From assembly GCA_016125215.1 (NCBI GenBank), contig WGMF01000015.1, positions 1 through 64,000 of the forward strand: a stretch of DNA of 64,000 nt, read 5' to 3'. Shown here one piece after another: positions 47,203 through 50,564 of the stretch (position 1 is the stretch's first letter; the number at the start of each line of letters is the position of its first letter). This stretch comes from Phycisphaera sp. GTDB lineage: Bacteria > Planctomycetota > Phycisphaerae > Phycisphaerales > Phycisphaeraceae. Below the pieces are notes generated by a model. It had not been told where the DNA came from. It searched no databases and saw only the letters and a program-made list of their open reading frames with translations. The position numbers and the translations under genes are program-made.

Positions 47203-50200
47203 ATGTCACGAGCCCACCGTTCGACCCGATCGATCTTTGCGATCCTGACCATTGCGGTCCTCACCCAGTTGCTCCTGCTCACCGCGCTGAACGTCGGTGC
47301 GCGGGCACAGGCCGCCGAGGCGTCACACGGCGCTTCGTCCCTGCACACAAAGGGCTTCGACCTCAAGCCCTCGCCCGATGAGGTGCTCGAACTGCTCACC
47401 ACGGGCAACGAACGATTCGTCGCGGGCCAATCCCTCAACCCCCACACCGACGCCGCCCGCCTTGCACAGGCCGGCTCGGAAGACCAGGGCAACCACGCCC
47501 TTGTCACCGTCATCACCTGCTCCGACTCGCGCGTCCCCGTCGAGCGGGTCTTCGACATGGGCGTCATGGACATCTTCGTCATCCGCGTGGCCGGCAACGT
47601 CTGCGACACCGACGAGATCGGCTCCATTGAATACGGCCTGGCGCACGTGAACACCCCGGTGCTCGTCGTGCTCGGCCACACGCAATGTGGTGCCGTCACC
47701 GCCGTCACCAAGAGCCTCAAGGGCGCGGACCTTCACCTTGAAGAAAACATCCCCCCGCTGGTGGACAACATCGCCCCCGCCGTCCAACGCGCCATGACGC
47801 ACAACCACAGCGACGACGCGGCGCTCATTGCCGACGGCATCGTCGAGAACGTCTGGCAGTCGATCTCCGACCTCTTCCAGCGCAGCCCTTCGACGCGACA
47901 GCTCGTCAAGATGGGCAAAGTCAAAGTCGTCGGCGCGATCTACGACGTGGCCACCGGCCGCGTGAAATACCTCGACGCCAACAAGCCCGCGCAACTGCTC
48001 GCCGCCGCCGAGATGAACCCCGCGCCCGCGGCCTCCTCTCACAACACCGCCTCGCAAAGAGAACCGTCCGCAGCCGCCGTTTCCACACATCCCGCTGAAA
48101 AACAGGACATTTCCAGCCTCGTTACGCACGACATGCAGGGCTGGGTTGCCACGATCGGTGCTCCAGGGAGCTTCAGCACACCCGAGCTGGTCAAGGACAA
48201 GCGGCAGGCGTTCGGGTCGGCCGCCGGCAATGCACAGAAGCTCGAACCACAAGCCCTCGACGAACACACCAGCACGATCGTCACTGTCTTTTGGGGCCTG
48301 ACCACCCTGGCGCTCGTCGGCACGCTCTTTGCCGGGTTCTTGACCGCCAAGATCAAAGACGCCAAGGGCCACACCGTCCGCGGCTTCACCATGGCCAGCA
48401 AGCTTTCCCTGGCCTTCGGGGGTATGGCCACCATGCTCCTGCTCGTCGGAACCTTCGCGCTCTCATCCTCCGACACCAGCGACCAGGTCTCCGATCAGTT
48501 CTCCGACATCGTCTCCGACGCCGGCCTGCTCGAAGAGGTCCAGACCAGCGTCGTCAACCTCCGCATGCAGGTCAAGGACTTTTTGCTCAACAACTCCGAC
48601 GAAGCCCTGCAGAAATATTCCGACGCCGCCTCCGAGGTCAGTGTCCGAATCGACAAGGCCCACGCGGATATTCACTCCCCCGACCGGGTCAAGATGATCG
48701 ACGAGATCGACAAGCTGCTCGAAAATTATGAAGAGAAGTTTGCTGAGGTCGTGGGCGTGATCGATGAACGCAACGGCATCGTCGAGTCGCAGCTCAACAA
48801 GGCCGGCCCGAGGCTGGGCAGTGTCATCGGCGCAATCATCGACACCGCGAACATCGACGGCGATATGGCCGTGCAGATCGAAGCCAACAATGCGGTGGAC
48901 CACCTCAACGCCGCGCGTGTGGCGGTCATGAAGTTCCTCCGCACCAGCGAAAAGGCCGACGCCCAGAACGCGATCACGAGCCTCAAGGAAGGCGAAGAGA
49001 TCATGGCCCGCCTCGAGGGTGAGGTCCAGAACCCCACACGCAAGAAGTGGCTGGCCGAGGCCAAGATGGGCTACCAGTTCTACGCCCAGCGCGTCGAACG
49101 CCTCATCGAACTCGTTGATGAACGCAACGACATCGTTAAAGGTCACCTCGACGCGATCGGCCCGAAGGTGGCCACGCTTGGTGCGGGCCTCAACGAATCC
49201 ATTCGGAACACCGAGGCGCAGTTGAGGACCACCGCCGTGGCCGTCAGCGCCTCGACCATCACTCGCACCGCCACCGTCTCCGGCATCGCCTTGGCGCTGG
49301 CCGTCTGCGTGAGTGTCCTGCTCATCCGCATGTTGACCCGCTCGGTCAACAAGGTCCTCAACGTCATCCAGGCTGTGGCCTCGGGCGACCTGACCCAGCC
49401 GCTGCTGAACATGAAGTCCAAGGACGAGATGGGCGAGATGGCCCGCGCGACCGACCATATGAGTAGCGCCCTGCAGGACCTGGTCAAGTCCGTCGCACAG
49501 GCTTCGAGCGAGGTGGCCGCCGCCTCGACCGAGATCGCCGCTTCGAGCGAAGAGATCGCCCAGGGCATGACCGAGCAGTCCTCGCAGGTCTCCCAGATCG
49601 CCTCGGCGGTCGAAGAGATGTCCGCGTCGATCACCGAGGTCGCGGGCAAGAGCACGCAGGCGTCGCAGTCCGCCAACGACTCGGGCCAGGCCGCGACCGA
49701 CGGCGGCAAGATCGTCGATCAGACCGTGCAAGGCATGCGTGCGATCAACGAAGCCGTCTCCGAGGGCGCAGCCCGTGTGCAGGAGCTTGGCAAGCGTGGC
49801 GAGCAGATCGGCCAGATCATCGAGGTCATCAACGACATCGCGGATCAGACGAACCTGCTGGCCCTCAACGCCGCGATCGAAGCGGCACGAGCCGGCGAAC
49901 ACGGACGGGGCTTTGCGGTTGTGGCCGACGAAGTCCGCAAGCTCGCCGACCGCACGACCAAGGCCACCGAGGAGATCGCCTCCTCGATTCAGGCCATCCA
50001 GGAAGAGACGACCCGCGCGGTCAAACAGATGAACTCGGGCACGGAAGAGGTCAACAAGGGCGTCGAGAGCGCGACCCTCGCCGGCCAGAGCCTGAGCAAG
50101 ATCGTGCAGAGCGCTAAGGACGTGGCCACGATGGTGCAATCCATCGCGGCGGCGGCGGAAGAACAGTCCGCCGCGAGCACGCAGGTCTCCAAGAACGTCG

Positions 50201-50328
50201 AAGCCATCAGCGCGGTGACGACGCAATCGGTCGAGGGCGCAAGGCAAGCCGCCCAGGCCGCCGCGGGCCTCTCCGAGAAGTCCGAACGGTTGCAGGAGAT
50301 CGTCGGCCGGTTCAAACTCGCGGCCTGA
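47203..50328 (+). CDS. Beta-carbonic anhydrase fused to a methyl-accepting chemotaxis protein
   Basis: A 1041-residue membrane protein. TM1 is at about 11-31. A beta-carbonic anhydrase domain (about 50-265) has the full zinc set: Cys106, Asp108 and Arg110 in TCSDSRV, and His159/Cys162 in GHTQCGAV. After a linker, TM2 is at 357-382 and TM3 at 402-421, with a short basic cytoplasmic loop between them. A helical ligand-binding region (about 425-680) with two DERN-x-IV repeats resembles HBM/4HB sensors. TM4 at 686-709 leads to HAMP (to about 760) and the MCP signalling hairpin (tip 875-910, [20 protein letters not shown]). Both sensor parts would be periplasmic. CO2/bicarbonate hydration coupled to chemotactic signalling is inference. 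No che genes are adjacent. Confidence 0.93.
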
Positions 50329-50336
50329 AGAAGAAG

Positions 50337-50564
50337 TAGCCGCAGATGAACGCAGATGAACGCAGATAAAGACCGAGAAACTCAGGTTCACGCGGGGGTC
50401 GCGGGGAGCGCTGGGAAAGACAATTGAATAATCAAAAAACCGACGCGTTACAGCGTCGGTTTTTTATTGTTTAACTCTTAATTTCTTCCCCCTCGCTCTG
50501 GGCGACCCCCGCGTGAAATCTTCCCTTCCCCATCTGCGTCCATCCGCGTTCATCTGCGGTTGAT
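50337..50564. repeat. Class A inverted-repeat pair around a terminator
   Basis: The left arm runs from TAGCCGCAGATGAACGCAGA at 50337 to about 50415. The right arm, 50484-50564, is its inverted relative and includes the shared inner block TTCACGCGGGGGTCGC. No gene lies between; the centre holds the hairpin terminator at 50434. The pair fills the gap between two convergent genes. Confidence 0.85.
50434..50465. terminator. Bidirectional intrinsic terminator
   Basis: AAAAAACCGACGC (50434-50446) and GCGTCGGTTTTTT (50453-50465) form a perfect 13-bp stem around GTTACA, with T-runs on both strands. It serves the convergent carbonic anhydrase-chemoreceptor and nuoH genes and is central within the class A pair. 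Confidence 0.93.

Follow-up and report, generated by a model that had tools for sequence, protein, structure and literature searches.

What is a carbonic anhydrase doing at the front end of a chemotaxis receptor? CO2 gradients are ubiquitous in sediments and biofilms, yet bacterial chemotaxis is not known to have a receptor devoted to CO2. A single gene joining the two lies in a stretch of 64,000 nucleotides (here, the window) from Phycisphaera sp. (GCA_016125215.1, contig WGMF01000015.1, positions 1 to 64,000, forward strand). A sequence-only reading had proposed that the enzyme produces or tunes what the receptor senses and had added that it knew of no such protein described. On that last point the open-access full-text literature agrees: within it we found no published description of a carbonic anhydrase–chemoreceptor fusion. 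Both halves belong to known families; the combination, its spread, and a variant with an unrelated gamma-type enzyme appear to be new.

Is it really one gene? The frame (47203..50328, + strand) is open throughout, with an ATG start, no internal stops and 1041 codons, and it reads, in order, as a putative signal peptide, a beta-carbonic anhydrase (CA), a linker, two membrane helices, a periplasmic sensor of the helical bimodular (HBM) type resembling that of McpS, another membrane helix, a HAMP domain and a chemoreceptor hairpin. The single open frame and its Pfam matches thus bear out the claim of one 1041-residue protein holding a beta-CA and a complete chemoreceptor. GC at third codon positions runs from 0.73 to 0.95 along the frame, as in the neighboring genes, and an independent genome of the same bacterial family (locus L093) has the architecture at full length, 52–53% identical to the window protein, a likeness that argues against an assembly join; we looked for such a join, or a frameshift, and found neither. 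The gene stands alone, outside any che cluster and flanked by genes on the opposite strand. A terminator-like hairpin of 13 pairs, T-rich on both strands, lies 3' of it (50434..50465, +), from a consensus scan that gave 3 such sites against 4.0 expected on shuffling and hence no excess overall. Opposite the receptor half runs a 642-aa open frame (48463-50391, −), most likely a by-product of high third-codon-position GC and no gene.

Is the enzyme half still an enzyme? Residues 102–254 (47506..47964, +) match Pro_CA (PF00484) with E 2.2e-37 and 129 bits against a cut-off of 25.7, in the position also given by the genome profile search, which found the chimera to be the sole PF00484 protein in the host genome. 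In the predicted structure (mean pLDDT 74.7, the CA domain mostly above 90), this domain matches the Rv3588c carbonic anhydrase (2a5v) with an rmsd of 1.6 and a TMt of 0.92. The zinc ligands C106 (47518-47520), H159 (47677-47679) and C162 (47686-47688) and the dyad D108 (47524-47526) and R110 (47530-47532), all on the + strand, sit exactly where they had been placed and are invariant in an alignment of 36 rows. Across relatives, the Cys-His-Cys ligands and the Asp-Arg dyad are intact in 22 of 22 CA domains of chimeras and in 69 other domains, rows that were cut out by the zinc-motif pattern from loci found with other peptides; among the best 80 of 163 matches, the motif is absent from only two loci, both broken frames. 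The window domain is therefore a predicted CO2-hydrating enzyme with a complete zinc and catalytic set. The possibility of a pseudo-enzyme we reject on sequence, the active site being intact in all chimeras and the single clear loss being that of genome G525, described below.

Where, then, would this enzyme sit? Hydrophobic segments at residues 11–29, 359–377, 397–415 and 690–708 match helices in the predicted model, and the sequence-only reading had taken all four as membrane helices that put enzyme and sensor together in the periplasm. The shared placement stands as a prediction, because the loop between the second and third segments is positively charged and HAMP must be inside; the count needs amending. 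The closest standalone relatives, proteins of ~270 aa, have the same kind of hydrophobic N-terminus, and for that reason the first segment, followed by ARAQA-A, is most likely part of a cleaved signal peptide (residues 1–36; 47203..47310, +; the cleavage is inferred), leaving three true membrane helices. The first of these (residues 359–377; 48277..48333, +), conserved in position, would run from outside to inside; the second (397–415; 48391..48447, +), after the short charged loop, from inside to outside; and the third (690–708; 49270..49326, +), by hydropathy, from outside to inside. Cleaved or not, segment 11–29 would leave the CA periplasmic.

Between the enzyme and the membrane lies a predicted disordered periplasmic linker (residues 267–356; 48001..48270, +; pLDDT below 50 at 275–349), which in relatives spans 40–173 residues and is often rich in histidine. 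Histidine makes up 5–13% of it in most relatives that carry the sensor called LBD-B below, 0% in L093 and 4.5% in the window protein; given these last two values, we do not regard a His-rich linker as a common element. One Planctomycetota relative (L046) has 173 residues after its CA, Gly/Ser-rich and with 12.7% histidine, the enrichment being milder in most LBD-B relatives; that stretch could be a proton buffer or a zinc binder.

The receptor half is more conventional. Its periplasmic sensor (residues 416–689; 48448..49269, +) we call HBM-like, since PF16591 matches at residues 445–634 with E 7e-6 and 26.1 bits, below the curated cut-off of 29.8. By sequence, the region found no match in the PDB, and a fold search was used instead: the model, six helices in HBM layout (mean pLDDT 71.8), is closest to the HBM domain of McpS (2yfa/2yfb; E 9e-6, TMt 0.60–0.64), with PilJ and TorS next. 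What had been described as a complete four-helix-bundle chemoreceptor is indeed complete, with HAMP (residues 706–759; 49318..49479, +; PF00672, E 4e-10) and signaling hairpin (822–1006; 49666..50220, +; PF00015, MCPsignal, E 1e-51, with a matching genome profile position); the sensor, by its fold match, is helical bimodular and McpS-like. HBM receptors bind organic acids, as McpK does alpha-ketoglutarate (PMC5126104). The hairpin is ordinary, has the conserved tip, and finds its nearest neighbors in the same bacterial family. A full chemotaxis set is at hand in the host genome, which encodes CheA, CheR, CheB, CheX and CheY, has three proteins with a CheW domain (the CheA included) and possesses only two chemoreceptors (MCPs). 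The other (G000:C57:19218; L182, L121) has a Tll0287-like sensor (PF11845) with a CxxCH haem-c motif, and both receptors of this organism may be gas or redox sensors.

Is the window gene an oddity or one of a kind that recurs? Relatives with the same architecture, whose lack would have told against the proposal, do exist: at least 17 further genes, making at least 18 with the window's own, in at least six phyla (Planctomycetota, Sumerlaeota, Zixiibacteriota, Hydrogenedentota, Desulfobacterota and Spirochaetota). The window's family contributes three genomes, one with a single CA (L093) and two with tandem CA domains (L041, L042). A scan of one genome per species over 84,980 species, of which the best 80 of 163 matches were followed so that the counts are lower bounds, added L040 (Sumerlaeota), L043 (a metagenome-assembled genome, or MAG, with tandem CA domains), L044 (Zixiibacteriota), L046 and L083 (Planctomycetota), L047, L048, L062, L064 and L071 (Desulfobacterota), L050 (Hydrogenedentota) and L118 (Spirochaetota); L195 (in G542) and L226 (a second copy in the genome of L064) are also counted. 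Two of the 18, L040 and L062, reach a contig end, and L057, with the same architecture split by a frameshift, comes in addition to them. Where two CA domains precede one chemoreceptor (L041, L042, L043), both active sites are intact. The fusion is rare nonetheless, found above threshold in 1 of 392 sampled Planctomycetota (the window's own) and 2 of 395 sampled Desulfobacterota.

These relatives are built alike. The join comes after the point at which standalone enzymes naturally end, near AMNAMAxxGH; nearly all chimeras retain the domain order, the linker and the membrane spacing; and conservation is stronger in the CA than in the sensors. On the CA tree, 10 changes account for the chimera label, against 18 after shuffling, and at least 2 are required by well-supported branches, the resolution being too weak to count origins. 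Among plasmids, 664 records match the beta-CA, all below 60% identity, and no fusion is annotated among the matches listed. Other joinings of this enzyme to the membrane also turned up: exported beta-CAs that end in a membrane anchor and lack any receptor, in the window's bacterial family (L037:6509-7753 in G005; L038:6688-7995 in G034), and, in genome G043 of the window's order, a SulP-type transporter whose C-terminal domain is a beta-CA (L035:6097-8982, −). The window protein is no such transporter fusion, its chain holding no sulfate transporter domain in a Pfam scan.

The sensors fall into groups: HBM in the window protein and L093 (group A); LBD-B, of ~280 residues, in L040–L044, L046, L083, L195 and L226 (group B); and LBD-C, a four-helix bundle (4HB), in L047, L048, L050, L062, L064 and L071 (group C); the 4HB domain of L118 is clear but stands apart from these groups. 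Groups B and C each occur on different signaling types, with DQTN tips (typical of Phycisphaeraceae), FQTN or RQTN, and therefore CA and sensor would act as a unit that has been attached to several signaling halves, or the reverse. In a search of 19 genomes, mostly chimera carriers, and the 395 Desulfobacterota, every LBD-B match shares its frame with a CA domain or, in one case, with what remains of one. That case is G525 (L234:5593-8229, G525:C110), an LBD-B receptor whose CA keeps both ends and lacks the catalytic core, either because the enzyme was lost in nature or because the assembly has a deletion there. Group C occurs also without a beta-CA, and two LBD-C receptors (L217, L219) have no CA nearby.

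Another LBD-C receptor without beta-CA occurs in G480 (Desulfobacterota; L230:5808-8897, G480:C162). Its signal peptide, a periplasmic stretch rich in histidine and the additional membrane helix are all present, and 18 bp upstream lies a gamma-CA gene that matches Cam (1qq0) with E 2.5e-75, begins with an RR-type export-like N-terminus and is itself preceded by a cheW gene. This locus is possibly a convergent version of the window system; that an unrelated enzyme of the same reaction should stand in this position, in what is a single case, is hard to explain unless CA activity matters to the receptor. In six loci (L044, L046, L048, L050, L064, L118), the chimera lies among che genes, the order being cheY, cheA, cheW, two unknown genes, chimera, cheR, cheD, cheY, a further ORF and cheB in L044; cheA, cheW, chimera, cheR, cheY and cheB in L046; and cheA, cheW, MCP, cheR, cheB, chimera and cheD in L048. 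All 12 chimera genomes tested from the species scan encode CheW-domain proteins. As for unfused beta-CAs, only one among ~60 (L056) lies directly beside a receptor gene, and linkage to receptors as a general pattern is rejected.

How might all of this work? We lean, by a modest degree, toward an enzyme-coupled transmembrane chemoreceptor, in which a periplasmic beta-CA, tethered through a flexible linker and one additional membrane helix, would interconvert CO2 and HCO3-/H+ in the immediate vicinity of the periplasmic sensor. This domain, of HBM type in the window protein and LBD-B or 4HB in its relatives, would respond to a product, most likely bicarbonate, given that carboxylates and nitrate are ligands of related helical sensors, or else protons, and the signal would pass through the membrane helix to HAMP, the hairpin and CheW/CheA, and so to behavior. 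The enzyme, in other words, would convert a gas that crosses membranes into a charged form that a receptor can read, fast enough for chemotaxis. Sensing of CO2, bicarbonate or pH is best supported by comparison because the architecture recurs, the active site is conserved, the chimeras lie in che contexts, one sensor type is tied to CA and a gamma-CA stands in at one locus; the original idea of a signal generated or tuned by the interconversion is partly supported on these grounds, and that the receptor reads the product is something we infer. Several findings count against the coupling: the sensors, being of three types, do not share one conserved ligand pocket, no CA lies near L217 or L219, G525 keeps its receptor and has lost the CA core, the gamma-CA case is single, HBM sensors may simply bind organic acids, and the window gene lies outside a che cluster.

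Might the CA itself be the sensor? On this account, substrate, bicarbonate, pH or zinc would alter its allosteric or oligomeric state, the change would pass through linker and helices, the HBM or 4HB domain would relay it or sense something else, and turnover would be irrelevant. Beta-CAs are dimers or tetramers, some of them under allosteric control by bicarbonate or pH, and Rv3588c, the nearest structure to the window CA, is among these; the superior conservation of the CA also fits. We nevertheless hold this unlikely, for a disordered linker of 40–173 residues would transmit mechanical change poorly, the catalytic residues are all retained, and in G480 an unfused, unrelated enzyme takes the beta-CA's place.

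It is also improbable, in our judgment, that the CA is a passenger, a useful periplasmic enzyme (for CO2 supply or polar pH buffering) anchored by a receptor that senses unrelated ligands such as organic acids through its HBM or 4HB domain. Anchored CAs without receptors in the same family, the carboxylates bound by HBM domains (the fold match is McpS with malate/succinate) and the chimera's being its genome's only PF00484 protein are what such a passenger would have going for it; the restriction of LBD-B, within the genomes searched, to frames with a CA or a CA remnant, a location in che clusters and a gamma-CA beside an LBD-C receptor would all be unexpected.

More improbable still is a beta-CA-fold enzyme acting on another small molecule, carbonyl sulfide or carbon disulfide, whose hydrolysis product (H2S or acid) the receptor would sense: the hydrolases of both share the fold (3vqj, 3ten) and many hosts are relatives of sulfate reducers, but the domain is far closer in sequence to Rv3588c (6e-27) than to the COS (1.5e-6) or CS2 (5.7e-5) hydrolase, and the alternative partner is a Cam-type gamma-CA. 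An artifact, finally, by assembly join or frameshift between two genes, would suit the origin of the chimeras found in MAGs and the split L057 and has next to no probability, refuted as it is by at least 18 genes from independent assemblies with the same junction and topology, by uniform composition and by one open frame.

There is a fair chance that the enzyme-coupled receptor we prefer represents a distinct class; the wider proposition, of a hitherto unrecognized class of dedicated CO2/bicarbonate chemosensors in which a periplasmic CA (a fused beta or a neighboring gamma enzyme) makes the species that the receptor reads, assembled more than once from different receptor parts, we put at even chances. 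If so, a built-in enzyme may let some bacteria perceive dissolved CO2, bicarbonate or pH. Such a receptor would be among the few whose sensing half includes a catalytic module, and it offers a model, taken from nature, of how coupling to an enzyme can serve to detect a gas. Because it brings its own CO2-hydrating enzyme, CO2 taxis comes within direct reach of experiment.

Several known systems resemble parts of the design. With Rv3588c of Mycobacterium tuberculosis and the exported bacterial beta-CAs (NCBIfam NF011765 match), the window protein shares the fold, the zinc ligands and the Asp-Arg dyad, and with the exported enzymes an N-terminal signal sequence; known beta-CAs are unfused to receptors, whereas the window chain runs past the natural CA C-terminus into one. 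The SulP–beta-CA transporters also join the enzyme covalently to a membrane protein, but at the transporter's C-terminus and with no signaling domain. The Pseudomonas receptors McpS and McpK have an HBM-like periplasmic sensor, HAMP and MCP hairpin in common with it; they have two membrane helices and no enzyme, to which the window protein adds enzyme, linker and one extra helix before the sensor. The PilJ-type receptor McpN, which binds nitrate through its PilJ domain in nitrate chemotaxis (PMC6381276), suggests how bicarbonate might be read, since its periplasmic sensor, likewise helical, recognizes a small planar anion, although it has no enzyme and the window sensor is closer to McpS than to PilJ. 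And the Cam-type gamma-CA of Methanosarcina, a fold unrelated to beta-CA and, unlike the window enzyme, unfused, has its homologue encoded beside the beta-CA-less LBD-C receptor of G480.
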